Origin: a virus
Virus record (IMG/VR): IMGVR_UViG_3300025769_000350
Coordinates: 1-36,476 of that record
Strand: one strand, 5' to 3'
Length of the DNA: 36,476 nucleotides
In this document: positions 814 to 5,230 of the stretch, piece after piece
How the letters are laid out: each line of letters starts with the position of its first letter
Position numbering within the stretch: position 1 is the stretch's first letter
Notes under the pieces: model-generated
Seen by the model: only the letters and a program-made list of their open reading frames with translations
What the model was told of the DNA's origin: nothing
Databases searched by the model: none
Made by a program: the position numbers and the translations under genes

Positions 814-1308
814 ATGGCTGATACAACCACGACGACATACGGCCTCACAAAACCAGAGGTCGGCGCGTCTGAAGATACTTGGGGCACCAAGTTAAACACA
901 AACTTAGATTCTATCGATGATCTGCTCGATGGGACGACTGCTGTTACTGGCATCGACATCAATTCAGGCACGATTGACAATGCAACAGTTGGAGCAACGA
1001 CAGCATCAACTGGAAACTTTACGACGCTATCAATCAACGGAACTGCGATCACATCGACTGCGGCCGAGTTAAATTTCGTTGATGGTGTTACATCTAATGT
1101 CCAAACTCAGTTAGATGCGAAAGCGCCAACTGCCAGCCCAACGTTTACAGGAACAGTGAATATTCCTACAATCGATTTTGGTGACTGGACTATTACTGAA
1201 TCTGCTGGAGTATTGTACTTTGCAACTGGCGGCACAAATAAGATGAAACTCGACGCGAGTGGAAATTTAACTGTTGTCGGTGACGTAACTGCTTACGGGA
1301 CAATCTAA
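814..1308 (+). CDS. Phage tail fibre-like protein
   Basis: This 164-residue protein begins [20 protein letters not shown], a start common in phage tail-fibre proteins. It carries low-complexity Thr/Ser/Gly beta repeats: the [20 protein letters not shown] region, the [11 protein letters not shown] motif found in many phage fibre and tail proteins, and the 'ASPTFTGTV' fibre repeat near residue 107. A ribosome binding site (AAGGAG) lies about 7 bases before the ATG. The stop overlaps the next ATG by one base, so it is translationally coupled to the glycine-rich fibre gene. It probably forms part of the receptor-binding or fibre apparatus. Family-level identification is good; the exact position in the fibre is not known. 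Confidence 0.75.
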
Positions 1309-2231
1309 TGGCCTTACCATCATCCGGAACACTTAGCATATCTGACATTGCGACGGAGTTTAATGATACTGCTCCAAACTCAATGTCAGAGTTTTATCGA
1401 GGGGGCGGAAAAGTTCCAGATTCTGCTGGCAACTCATCCGTTCCGGCGTCTGGCCAAATTGGCATTGGTAACTTTTACAATGCGGCCAACAGAGCGGCAG
1501 TAGCGATAAGCATTGCCGCTAATACACAGAACTACGACGTATACACTCAGGCGTCAGCAAATCCATCATATGTTGCTGGAACTAGCGACATTACTGTTAC
1601 TGTGGATTCTGGAATTGCAGTTGGATCTACGTCAACTGGAACTTACGCTCTATCTATTCCAAACTCGTTCAATCCCGGCGATACAGTCACAATTGTCAAC
1701 AATGGCACGATTATTGGCGCTGGTGGAAACGGTGGAAACGGCGGAAATAAATATTATTGGCCTCAGAGTCCAACCGGAGTCCAACCCGGAACTCCGGGGT
1801 CAGGTGGCGGCAATGCAGTCTATGTAAACTTCCCAACAATCATCACTAACAACGGAACAATCGCCGGAGGCGGCGGAGGTGGTGGAGGTGGTGCGTCTAC
1901 AAATCTACCTACTGGTGGCTACGGAGGTGGTGGCGGTGGTGGTGGCGCTGGATATTCTGGCGGATCAGGCGGCGCAATGAATCCTCCGTTTGCGGCAGTT
2001 CCATATACATATAACGGAACACCGGGAGCTACTGGAACAACAACTGCTGGTGGTGCTGGCGGATCAAGAGGTGGCGGCGCTGGCGGAGGACAAGGCGCAA
2101 ATGGATCGAGTGGTTCTCCGGGAAATCCGGGCGTTGTTGGCGGAACTGGCGGAACAAGAGGATATTATGTTGTCGGCAATCCACTAGTCACATATCCAGC
2201 AACTGGAACACTTTTAGGTCAAGTTTCTTAA
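1308..2231 (+). CDS. Glycine-rich, partly collagen-like tail fibre/adhesin
   Basis: This is a 307-residue protein. Residues 1-60 ([20 protein letters not shown]...) match the start of many phage fibre or structural proteins. Residues 61-135 look like beta strands. Residues 137-285 are very Gly-rich, with two related blocks beginning NNGTIIGAGG and NNGTIAGGGG and long G runs, like the polyglycine-helix sandwich of gp38-type distal adhesins. Residues 263-283 read as seven consecutive G-X-Y triplets with Pro in Y at 271 and 274. Pro-Gly pairs also occur at 160, 163 and 239. The start overlaps the stop of the upstream fibre gene. A receptor-binding fibre or adhesin role is inferred. Being next to an oxygenase with prolyl-hydroxylase-like motifs makes the Pro-Gly sites notable. 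Confidence 0.7.
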   Translation: MALPSSGTLSISDIATEFNDTAPNSMSEFYRGGGKVPDSAGNSSVPASGQIGIGNFYNAANRAAVAISIAANTQNYDVYTQASANPSYVAGTSDITVTVDSGIAVGSTSTGTYALSIPNSFNPGDTVTIVNNGTIIGAGGNGGNGGNKYYWPQSPTGVQPGTPGSGGGNAVYVNFPTIITNNGTIAGGGGGGGGGASTNLPTGGYGGGGGGGGAGYSGGSGGAMNPPFAAVPYTYNGTPGATGTTTAGGAGGSRGGGAGGGQGANGSSGSPGNPGVVGGTGGTRGYYVVGNPLVTYPATGTLLGQVS

Positions 2232-2244
2232 AAAGAGGAAAAAA

Positions 2245-2586
2245 ATGAATACCGTTACTGTAAAAATCGAATCTTGGGAAGAGGACAGCAAGAGTTTGGT
2301 TTGTCGTTTTGCATCTGACACAACTGCTTCAAGCAATCCTGATGACTATCGTCCCGTTGCATTTCAGCCACACTTGATGTGGCCACAGGCAACAACATCT
2401 GATGACATCATGACGAACATTGCTAGGGCTGGCGCAAATATTTGCCAAGAAATTGCAAATGAAGAGGCGTTAAATAGTGACGCGGCTCAGTTATCTGTTT
2501 ATAGCGGATTGTCAGGACAGACACAAACATTTAACGTTGCTGATATTCAGGAGCCACCAGCTCCAGAAGGTGTGGCTGGCTCGTAA
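2245..2586 (+). CDS. Small tail-module protein, function unknown
   Basis: This 113-residue acidic protein is preceded by a good ribosome binding site (AGAGG) 13 bases after the fibre stop. It has no signal peptide or membrane segment. Its N-terminus (MNTVTVKIESWEEDSKSLVC) looks like beta strands. The middle is helical (IMTNIARAGANICQEIANEE) and the end is Pro-rich. Small proteins of this size between fibre genes are sometimes fibre assembly chaperones, but I see no motif that proves this. It lies 6 bases upstream of the oxygenase gene, so the two are probably co-translated. Confidence 0.6.
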   Translation: MNTVTVKIESWEEDSKSLVCRFASDTTASSNPDDYRPVAFQPHLMWPQATTSDDIMTNIARAGANICQEIANEEALNSDAAQLSVYSGLSGQTQTFNVADIQEPPAPEGVAGS

Positions 2587-2592
2587 TTATTT

Positions 2593-3735
2593 ATGATCGC
2601 ACACAAACACGTTAAGAATGCTTTACATCGTGACAACTGCCAACAACTAACAGACTTTCTAAAGGCGAGCGTTGAAGATGGCATTGCCGTACATGATGAG
2701 CAATGCCCAACAAGCTGGGGAGTGCACCATCATCCAATGCTTGAAAGAGTGTTGGAAGAGTTTGTGCCGTTTATGGAAGAGCAAACCGGAAAACGTTTGT
2801 TCCCGACATACGCTTACGCAAGGCTCTACAAAAAAGGCGAAGTTTTAAAGTGTCACGTTGACCGTCCAGCGTGTGAGATCAGCGCGACAATTACGCTGGG
2901 ATTCGATAATGATGTCTGGCCAATATTTATTGCTGATGCTGGCGAAGAGACAGATCAAGGCATTATTGGCGAAAGAGACTCAATATTTCGAGTTAAGAAC
3001 ATTAACAAGATTGAGATGGATGTCGGTGACGCGCTAATTTATAGCGGATGCGAGTCTCCGCATTGGCGAGATGAGTTTGAGGGAGAATGGCAAACTCAAA
3101 TCTTTCTTCATTATGTAGATCAAGACGGGCCAAACGCAAAACATAAGTTTGATGACAGGCCGTTTCTATCTCATCACGTTAATGAAGAAAACGAAGAATG
3201 CTTGTATTGGTTTATTCCGAACGCAATATCGCATCCATCATGCGATTCGATGATCAGCAAGTTTGAGTCACATAAGCTGGAGAAGGCAACGATTGGATCT
3301 GGTAATGCAAATGCCGTTGATTGCAGAGTGCGTGATGTAAACAAATTACAGATAACCAATGAGATTGGAATCGGAGCCACACTTACTGGAATGGGCCTAA
3401 ACATCAACAGCAGATCGTGGAAGTTTGATATTACGAGGAGCAATCAGGCTGAATACCTGATGTACGACAAGGATGGAAAGTATAAGACTCACGTTGACAC
3501 ATACATTAGTCCAAAAGATAAAGAGTCTCGCAAGATAACAGTTTTGGCGTTTTTAAACGATGATTTTGAGGGCGGCAAATTTTATCTGGAAAACGACTAC
3601 AAAAGGATTTATCCTCCACAGGAGAAGGGGACAGTTTTAGCGTTTCCGAGTTTCATCAATCATGGCGTCGAGCCAGTAAAATCAGGAATACGGCGCAGTA
3701 TTGTCACTTGGCTGGTTGGGCCTTGGTTTAGGTAA
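2593..3735 (+). CDS. Tandem 2-oxoglutarate/Fe(II)-dependent oxygenase
   Basis: This 380-residue protein contains two 2OG-Fe(II) dioxygenase domains in one chain. The N-terminal domain (about 1-178) has metal ligands H88-x-D90 in KCHVDRP and a distal H157 in CESPHWRD, followed by the strand QIFLHYVD. The C-terminal domain (about 205-380) resembles PKHD/prolyl-4-hydroxylases, with H300-V-D302, the EGGKFYLEN turn, H357 in FPSFINHGVEPV and R367/R368 as the 2OG carboxylate ligand. In the N-terminal domain the residue about ten after H157 is Gln rather than Arg, so that domain may bind cosubstrate differently or be impaired. Such enzymes hydroxylate protein side chains or nucleobases; the substrate here is unknown. 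It sits inside the tail and fibre operon beside a Pro-Gly-containing fibre, so modification of virion protein is an inference. Confidence 0.85.
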   Translation: MIAHKHVKNALHRDNCQQLTDFLKASVEDGIAVHDEQCPTSWGVHHHPMLERVLEEFVPFMEEQTGKRLFPTYAYARLYKKGEVLKCHVDRPACEISATITLGFDNDVWPIFIADAGEETDQGIIGERDSIFRVKNINKIEMDVGDALIYSGCESPHWRDEFEGEWQTQIFLHYVDQDGPNAKHKFDDRPFLSHHVNEENEECLYWFIPNAISHPSCDSMISKFESHKLEKATIGSGNANAVDCRVRDVNKLQITNEIGIGATLTGMGLNINSRSWKFDITRSNQAEYLMYDKDGKYKTHVDTYISPKDKESRKITVLAFLNDDFEGGKFYLENDYKRIYPPQEKGTVLAFPSFINHGVEPVKSGIRRSIVTWLVGPWFR

Positions 3736-3745
3736 GGACACAAAA

Positions 3746-5230
3746 ATGGCACTCATTCCGTTACAGATCCCGCCCGGAGTTGTTAGAGTCGGCACAGAAT
3801 ACGAGCAATCTAATCGATGGCGTGATGCTAGTTTGATTCGTTGGCATAACGGATCTATGAGGCCAGTTGGCGGTTGGTCAACCAGAAATTCAACAGTAAC
3901 AGCGGCCGCCCCGAGAGGAATGCACGTTTGGACTGACAACACAGATGGCGTAAATACTGTGTTGGCCGATTATGACTCGATTATCTATGTCAACGCGTCA
4001 GGCACCACGACAGACATTACTCCAACTGGATTGACGGCTGGCAGAGAGGACGCGGCGGTCAATACTGCTTTTAGTGGCGGATTCTATGGGACTGGATATT
4101 ACGGCGTAACGAGGCCGAGCAGTAGCACGTTTCAGGAAGCCACAACTTGGTCTTTAGATAACTGGGGCGAGTATCTTGTCGCGTGTAATGCAGACGATGG
4201 CAAGATATATGAGTGGCAACTAGATACTGCAAGTCCAGCGGCTCAGATATCTGGCGCTCCAACTAGCAATAAGGGCATTATCGTTACTGAAGAGCGCTTT
4301 TTGTTTGCATTAGGTGCTGGCGGTAATCCTAGAAAAGTCCAATGGTGTGATAAAGAAGACAACACAACGTGGACTCCAGCGGCAACGAACGAAGCTGGCG
4401 ACATTGAATTGCAGACTAGCGGTCAAATTATGGGCGCTGTTCGTGTTCGAGGTCGAACGTTAATTATCACGGACAACGACGCGCATATTGCGACGTATTC
4501 TGGCCCTCCATTTGTGTTTGGATTCGAGAGAGTTGGCACGGCGTGTGGCGTTGTATCAAGAAAAGCGATTGCGGCAGTCGATGAAGGCGCTTTTTGGATG
4601 GGGCCAAAGGGATTCTTCATGTTTGATGGATCTGTTGCTAAAGAAATACCGTGCGAAGTTTCGGATTATGTGTTCGCAAACATAAACAGGAATCAAATCA
4701 CCAAGACTTATGCTGTTCACAACAGTCAATTTGGAGAAATTTGGTGGTTTTATCCGAGCAACGACTCTTTAGAGAATAACAAGTATGTCGCATACGACTA
4801 TTTAGAGAATCATTGGGAGATTGGCGAGATTGATCGCACATGCGGCGTTGATCGAGGCGTGTTTAACAATCCAATATGGGCGGATGCAAGCGGAAACACT
4901 TACAATCAAGAGATGAGCGCCAGCTTGGGTCATGGATCTTATTCAGTATTTGCCGAAACTGGCCCAATTAGTCTTGCCGCTGGCGACAAAGTGATGAAGG
5001 TCACAAGTTTGATCCCAGATGAGGCAAATCAAGGCGATGTGACGGTCACATTCAAGACCAGATTCTATCCAAACGCATCTGAGTCATCATTTGGCCCATT
5101 CTCGATGGCAAATCCAACTGACGTGAGATTCACTGGCAGACAGATCAGGATGCGAGTCGAAGGAAACGTGAATACAGACTGGCGAGCTGGGATAATGCGG
5201 ATTGAGGCGAAAGCCGGAGGTAAACGTTGA
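3746..5230 (+). CDS. Tail hub / DNA-stabilisation-like protein
   Basis: This 494-residue protein starts at the ATG at 3746, which follows a ribosome binding site (TAAGGAC). An earlier in-frame start at 3701 would overlap the oxygenase gene by 35 bases and lacks such a site. The N-terminus reads MALIPLQIPPGVVRVGTEYE then RWRDASLIRW...MRPVGGW, a signature shared by podoviral tail hub or packaged-DNA-stabilising proteins of the P22 gp10 type. The rest contains repeated short beta blades with W and G (WTPAATNEAGDIEL, AFWMGPKGFFMFDG, WWFYPS, WEIGEID) fitting a beta-propeller. Length matches the roughly 470-residue P22 gp10. It probably closes the portal channel or joins neck to tail. The stop overlaps the next TTG start. 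Confidence 0.65.
   Translation: MALIPLQIPPGVVRVGTEYEQSNRWRDASLIRWHNGSMRPVGGWSTRNSTVTAAAPRGMHVWTDNTDGVNTVLADYDSIIYVNASGTTTDITPTGLTAGREDAAVNTAFSGGFYGTGYYGVTRPSSSTFQEATTWSLDNWGEYLVACNADDGKIYEWQLDTASPAAQISGAPTSNKGIIVTEERFLFALGAGGNPRKVQWCDKEDNTTWTPAATNEAGDIELQTSGQIMGAVRVRGRTLIITDNDAHIATYSGPPFVFGFERVGTACGVVSRKAIAAVDEGAFWMGPKGFFMFDGSVAKEIPCEVSDYVFANINRNQITKTYAVHNSQFGEIWWFYPSNDSLENNKYVAYDYLENHWEIGEIDRTCGVDRGVFNNPIWADASGNTYNQEMSASLGHGSYSVFAETGPISLAAGDKVMKVTSLIPDEANQGDVTVTFKTRFYPNASESSFGPFSMANPTDVRFTGRQIRMRVEGNVNTDWRAGIMRIEAKAGGKR

Follow-up and report, generated by a model that had tools for sequence, protein, structure and literature searches.

A fused pair of oxygenase folds beside the fibre genes of marine phages and its possible link to proline in receptor-binding fibre tips

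To our knowledge, most marine T4-like phages and many pelagiphages carry multiple 2OG oxygenases, for which no substrate has been demonstrated. A nucleic-acid role has been proposed for the 2OG oxygenases of cyanophages (PMC3037559, PMC9146016). The name ferrochelatase recurs in the same literature: a table of 2010 lists a 'Hyp. with ferrochetalase domain' (PMC3037559), the 'ferrochelatase' of pelagiphages has been taken as a haem enzyme or metabolic gene that is an obligate neighbour of oxygenases (PMC9599517), and in seasonal viral communities and contigs 'ferrochelatase' has been described as an enriched, haem-related auxiliary gene which co-occurs with 2OG oxygenases (PMC11561400).

Two double-stranded beta-helix (DSBH) domains in one chain are known from the uS12 prolyl hydroxylases OGFOD1 and Tpa1p, which have been called the only tandem-DSBH 2OG oxygenases identified as of 2015 (PMC4396695). 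The protein analyzed here, encoded in a viral stretch of 36,476 nucleotides (IMG/VR record IMGVR_UViG_3300025769_000350; hereafter the window), resembles them in having two such domains, and Foldseek matched it to 3kt4 and 4nhy. However, OGFOD1 and Tpa1p have a catalytic N-terminal and a metal-free C-terminal domain, whereas in the window chain both iron sites, including the C-terminal triad, are intact and the P4H-type domain is the C-terminal one. This second domain (D2) shares its fold (Z 17-19.5), the HxD...H motif and an Arg at H+10 with P. putida P4H (4iw3), PBCV-1 vCPH (5c5t) and PiuC (9qn0), but, unlike the P4H, PHD2 and PKHD hydroxylases, it shares its chain with another oxygenase domain and is encoded in a phage fibre operon. 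The first domain (D1) shares the fold of the non-haem alpha-ketoglutarate enzyme SnoN (5ep9), from which it differs by the lack of Arg at H+10 and by a signature of its own.

Among phages, the phrog_3531 proteins of ACG-2014f and S-T4 are full-length fused homologues (~27-28% identity), and homologues belonging to phrog_2954 and phrog_61 are encoded by split neighbouring genes in HTVC023P, HTVC033P, S-CAM8 and S-SSM5. These cyanophage and pelagiphage homologues have been named as haem enzymes, whereas the window pair consists of two oxygenase folds for which a part in fibre maturation is proposed below. Collagen and collagen prolyl 4-hydroxylase provide an analogy only, namely a Gly-rich, Pro-containing structural protein together with an enzyme of P4H fold; unlike collagen, the phage fibre tips show no enrichment of X-Pro-Gly, the context of collagen P4H, over their Gly background. 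The tandem belongs, as a new member, to a phage family that already exists under a wrong name; the novelty lies in the proposed fibre-proline link and in the unusual site of D1.

The gene and its locus

The tandem oxygenase gene is an intact ORF of 380 codons according to the ORF list and its translation (Table 1). The whole chain matched phrog_3531 (E 1.2e-31, residues 9-375 of 380 onto 17-362 of 362), and its halves carry the PHROGs labels phrog_2954 and phrog_61 (2OG-Fe(II) oxygenase), respectively; both phrog_3531 and phrog_2954 are named 'ferrochelatase'. The Pfam match covered the second half only (PF13640, E 1.2e-15, residues 288-374).

Table 1. Features of the tandem oxygenase locus (positions in the window)
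Feature	Position	Strand	Evidence
Upstream fibre-like structural protein (putative)	814..1308	+	Translation; related contigs share the position
Gly-rich gp38-like receptor-binding fibre tip, proposed substrate	1308..2231	+	PF05268 GP38, E 2e-8; phrog_2056/11439 tail fibre; translation; Pro statistics
113-aa small protein between fibre and oxygenase	2245..2586	+	Gene of 65-140 aa recurrent here in relatives
Tandem 2OG-Fe(II)-type oxygenase, 380 aa, D1 + D2	2593..3735	+	ORF; phrog_3531; AF2; dN/dS
D1, residues 1-195, domain named 'ferrochelatase' (phrog_2954)	2593..3177	+	PHROG match; conservation; fold match
D2, residues 196-380, PF13640 P4H/PKHD-type oxygenase	3178..3732	+	PF13640; profile; fold matches
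P22 gp10-like 'stabilization' structural protein	3746..5230	+	phrog_3287, E 9e-96; homologues annotated phage stabilization protein

A location within a fibre operon, which had been claimed from the sequence alone, was confirmed, the gene lying between the Gly-rich fibre tip with the 113-aa protein and the gp10-like protein. Judging by its position, the 113-aa protein is a possible fibre-assembly partner. The listed ORF of the gp10-like gene (3701-5230) opens with TTG at 3701 and would overlap the oxygenase gene by 34 nt, and the ATG at 3746 is the likelier start. An Ala/Ser-rich, low-complexity structural protein, the length of which is highly variable among relatives, is also encoded at the fibre locus (166-801). 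The rest of the window contains capsid, portal, terminase and replication genes, indicating a small tailed phage. The closest named relative found was Octadecabacter Antarctic DB virus 2, in which a tail fibre gene directly precedes the gp10-like gene and no oxygenase is annotated between the two.

Two oxygenase domains and the unusual site of the first

The full chain was modelled by AF2 with a 38-row alignment of the window and viral-contig proteins. The model (mean pLDDT 90) contained two beta-sandwiches, the mutual arrangement of which is unsure because the pTM was 0.55. In both halves, the HxD lies at the end of one strand and the second His in a later strand, which is followed by a long last strand, and both triads occupy the canonical strand positions. 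Structure prediction of both domains therefore bore out the two-domain claim of the sequence-only reading, and the chain almost certainly comprises two DSBH oxygenase folds. The two triads that it had listed (H88/D90/H157 and H300/D302/H357) are correctly numbered and conserved among relatives. A comparison of the window gene with its 96%-identical copy gave a dN/dS of ~0.10 overall (0.06 for D1 and 0.12 for D2), demonstrating that selection maintains both domains.

Among 80 relatives of D2, H300, D302 and H357 were 99-100% conserved and R367 was 100% conserved, and no conservation of R368 was found. Both members of the arginine pair that had been pointed out in this domain are present, at H357+10 and +11, but only R367 kept its significance, and R368 is not a conserved functional residue. 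The D2 profile matched P4H and PKHD crystal structures by sequence (E ~1e-15), and the closest folds were those of P. putida P4H 4iw3 (Z 19.5), PBCV-1 collagen prolyl hydroxylase (19.1), PHD2 (18-19) and PiuC (17). All three hallmarks of the superfamily were found in D2, i.e., the DSBH fold, the HxD...H triad and a basic residue about ten positions after the distal His (R367). On the basis of profile and model, D2 is predicted to be a P4H/PKHD-type peptidyl hydroxylase with a normal 2OG-binding Arg367.

The fold of D1 (residues 1-192) matched SnoN 5ep9 with a Z of 16.9 (173 residues aligned, rmsd 3.0, 12% identity). Across ~80 diverse relatives, H88, D90, H157, W158, R159 and H173 were invariant and R77, R91, C94, E95, F171 and Y174 essentially so; the signature of D1 is HxDR..CE.S ... 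HWR ... Q.F.HY. In a set fetched by patterns without HxD, H88 and D90 were kept in 77/77 D1 sequences. A search of PDB sequences by the D1 profile gave no match, and a profile-profile comparison of D1 with D2 was weak (34% probability with 7 sequences, 4% on larger sets), so that the assignment of D1 as an oxygenase rests on the predicted fold and the triad. D1 modelled alone without an alignment had a pLDDT of 34, and this model was not used. The absence of the usual Arg from D1, also reported earlier, was upheld: Q167 stands at H157+10, no 2OG-binding Arg or Lys was found at H+9 to H+11 in the ~80 relatives, and positions 167 (C/Q/Y/H) and 168 (G/A/V/T/I/H) vary. Because D1 is conserved and under selection, it is not a decaying domain, and because the canonical Arg position is variable, a co-substrate site unlike the standard one has to be assumed; the invariant R77, R91, R159 and H173 are candidates, suggested by conservation, for this non-standard pocket. 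The designation of the whole chain as a two-domain 2OG-Fe(II) enzyme thus holds for D2 and, as to fold and triad, for D1, but the missing Arg means that D1 is filed as an oxygenase-fold Fe domain rather than as a proven 2OG enzyme, and it may not be one. It might even be a non-catalytic scaffold like the C-terminal DSBH of OGFOD1/Tpa1p, leaving D2 as the sole enzyme, an arrangement which would be compatible with a fibre substrate. The lack of the 2OG-binding Arg and the OGFOD1/Tpa1p precedent (PMC4396695) point to such a role; however, ~80 D1 sequences retain the iron triad without exception (100%), whereas the C-terminal domains of OGFOD1/Tpa1p have no metal site, and we consider the scaffold rather unlikely.

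The identity of D1 as a ferrochelatase was also considered and rejected. PF00762 (HemH) was absent from the window and from six phages with genes annotated ferrochelatase (0/7 records) and present in 8/14 control genomes; a phrog_2954 match was found in 0/14 of these controls, and the standalone phage 'ferrochelatase' proteins had no Pfam match. Among the matches from an independent viral-structure library was the 'Ferrochelatase' of Synechococcus phage S-SM1, the BFVD model of which aligns to the window model with an rmsd of 2.3 over 160 columns. There is hardly any doubt that the name 'ferrochelatase' is wrong for the phage D1 family (phrog_2954). In publications on pelagiphages (PMC9599517) and on seasonal viral contigs (PMC11561400), the protein is taken as part of auxiliary iron or haem metabolism, in which it would provide or handle the iron of the oxygenase with which it is paired; this agrees with the annotation of phrog_2954 and of named phages as well as with the constant pairing of D1 with an oxygenase. 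Yet a protein without a PF00762 match where controls do match, half as long as a ferrochelatase and built as a DSBH with HxD...H makes this reading extremely improbable.

Distribution of the pair and its fibre neighbours

The tandem had been thought uncommon, a view that did not survive comparison with other phages: phrog_3531 already covers the fusion, which was found on ~30 further distinct viral contigs and also in Synechococcus phages ACG-2014f and S-T4, and the split D1/D2 version is very common in marine phages. D2 was part of the same chain in 33 of 143 distinct D1 ORFs and lay no more than 2.5 kb away on the same strand in 97, the remaining 13 being too near a contig end; in other words, D2 was fused or nearby in 130/130 of the D1 ORFs with enough flanking sequence. 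Since D2 lies beside or is fused to every assessable D1, the fusion joins two already cooperating proteins. Both gene orders occur in the split version. D1 is almost confined to viruses; 84,980 genomes of bacteria and archaea yielded 8 loci, most of them on MAG or single-cell contigs, which may be phage. In the D1 tree the fused forms cluster and at least two changes are forced, the branches being long and the fusion counts unsure.

Other arrangements of D1 were observed as well. In contig L026 (3965-5068), D1 is followed in the same chain by a C-terminal oxygenase domain other than D2, and a D2-type gene lies immediately upstream. A degenerate second domain was considered for this protein and rejected, as the domain proved on inspection to be intact and of another kind, which shows that D1 can exchange its C-terminal partner. 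In Synechococcus phage Sf-CH11 (contig L170, 3195-7058), a P4H-type gene, two other 2OG oxygenases, a tryptophan 7-halogenase and D1 are clustered between the gene for a very large structural protein and that for a LamG protein.

The position of fused genes was counted in 29 loci, each with at least two upstream genes. A Gly-rich gene was among the three genes upstream in 22/29, and Gly-rich genes elsewhere in these loci amounted to 2/68 in the three downstream positions and 2/85 further away. Upstream neighbours of the fused genes match tail-fibre PHROGs, a short gene (65-140 aa) often lies between fibre and oxygenase in relatives, as in the window, and the split pairs of pelagiphages and cyanophages also adjoin fibre genes. 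In contigs aligned on the gp10-like gene, the slot before it is variable, being empty or containing a fibre only, a fibre with oxygenases, or split or fused pairs. An exception is ACG-2014f, in which the fused gene lies by nrdA/nrdB, a CpeT gene and an endolysin-family gene and not by fibre genes; in S-T4 it is near helicase and endonuclease V genes. The association of D1 with a P0005-like gene (Fisher p 2e-8) comes from hand counts and near-identical contigs and was not relied on.

Further genes occupy the fibre/oxygenase slot of window-related contigs. Fatty-acid desaturase genes (PF00487; E 8.5e-14 for L174), unusual for a small phage, were found at L174:4245-5000, L177:4245-5000 and L182:92-847, and a gene for 196-203 aa with an HxH...K and GDxW...H pattern was found in the same slot at L174:2503-3114 and L172:1872-2462. 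The L174 protein with this pattern had no Pfam or PHROG match; to judge from the motifs, the gene perhaps encodes another DSBH enzyme.

Proline in the fibre tip and the proposed function

The idea that proline is involved arose from an exploratory comparison, in which more Pro was seen in Gly-rich fibres near D1. For the follow-up, fibres were fetched regardless of oxygenases and comprised family 1, with the window-type N-terminus, and family 2, with different N-termini and a KVTV[VI]GGGG domain, which was retrieved by DNA pattern. The Gly-rich region of the window fibre contains 8.3% Pro. In family 1, median Pro of this region was 8.3% with D1 and D2 within 4.5 kb (3.7-9.6, n=22) versus 1.3% in fibres without oxygenase (0-6.0, n=17; p=2.7e-7), a class defined by none within 4.5 kb, so that an enzyme could lie further out; with other oxygenases only, it was 0.8% (n=7). 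In family 2, the values were 7.0% with D1 and D2 (n=20) and 2.3% without (n=27; p=1.6e-7), part of the positive group being contigs from the exploratory step and the negative group being independent of it. Pro was the most changed residue in both families. The Pro-rich group had a locus GC similar to or below that of the other group, and the contrast in Pro persisted within GC bins; the remaining proteins encoded in these loci did not differ in Pro (4.4 vs 4.1% and 4.0 vs 3.9%). Contig L183, which has the gene order of the window without D1 and D2, encodes a fibre with 0.6% Pro.

Fibres accompanied by D1 and D2 mostly form one clade per family. Most random pairings agreed with the association between Pro and enzyme and none pointed in the opposite direction; the supported independent contrasts numbered 2 + 2 (five on the best family 2 tree), too few for significance, and shared cassette ancestry can therefore still explain part of the association. 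One contig with oxygenases only and 9.2% Pro (L267) was left out of the tree test, as it has only 1.5 kb downstream, and L373 was re-labelled because L027, another stretch of its contig, carries D1 and D2.

The P4H fold, the position in the fibre operon and the Pro enrichment confined to the neighbouring tip make prolyl hydroxylation of the tip the simplest account. What we infer for catalysis, for proline as the residue, for the fibre as substrate, for the role of D1 and for the benefit is as follows. The fused Fe(II) oxygenase pair would be produced late in infection, its gene sharing an operon with that of the Gly-rich fibre tip; D2, holding Fe by H300/D302/H357 and 2OG by Arg367, would hydroxylate prolines in the poly-Gly loops of the tip before or during its trimer assembly; D1, with its intact iron site and non-standard pocket, might perform a second oxidation or present the substrate; and hydroxyproline would make the host-contacting loops stiffer or decorate them. 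The chance that the DSBH pair matures the receptor-binding fibre in this manner appears to be about even. A virion or fibre substrate is probable, and proline specifically is as apt to be the hydroxylated residue as not. Virion protein, DNA and a host factor had been proposed as targets on an equal footing; the first is the most likely and the equality was not sustained, the comparative data favouring the Gly-rich fibre tip. The fullest form of the proposal, a collagen-style system in marine phages, in which a two-domain oxygenase hydroxylates fibre-tip Pro, the tips have evolved extra Pro as its substrate, and the abundant viral 'ferrochelatase' is one half of the pair with an unusual co-substrate site, is tentative and somewhat short of an even chance.

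The pair might also act on the virion at residues other than the prolines of the Gly-rich tip, e.g., Asn, Asp or Lys of another fibre or of the gp10-like protein, in which case the Pro link would reflect cassette ancestry. The small number of supported independent contrasts and the movement of the fibre cassette, with the P0005-like small gene and the oxygenases, as a unit would suit this explanation, but it is unlikely in view of the same association in two unrelated fibre families, with Pro top-ranked in both, and of the equal Pro content of the remaining proteins encoded there. Another alternative is a host-surface or superinfection factor, the post-fibre slot being a place for modifiers of the host envelope or receptor (lipid, glycan or outer-membrane protein), which would accommodate the PF00487 desaturase and the further oxygenases in that slot of related contigs as well as those loci that pair oxygenases with Pro-poor fibres. 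As it does not predict Pro enrichment in the adjacent fibre, and as D2 resembles peptidyl hydroxylases and not lipid enzymes, we regard it as improbable. A nucleic-acid enzyme, AlkB- or TET/JBP-like and serving DNA repair or hypermodification, is very improbable: the window gene lies in a structural operon and its best matches are P4H/PHD/PKHD structures (Z 16-19), although a weak Tet_JBP match below the cut-off (E 0.0015) was obtained for the ACG-2014f relative and the neighbours of the S-T4 fused gene would fit such a role.

The annotation of the phage 'ferrochelatase' phrog_2954 is corrected to that of an oxygenase-fold protein. A search of the literature for prolyl hydroxylation of phage fibres found no paper. 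For phage oxygenases, the fibre-proline proposal makes a specific prediction that is cheap to check, namely a gain of 16 Da (+16 Da) on prolines of the fibre. Should the proposal hold, receptor-binding proteins of phages would, as far as is known, join the targets of prolyl hydroxylation for the first time, and recognition of the host would be tied to the oxygen, iron and 2OG inside the cell.
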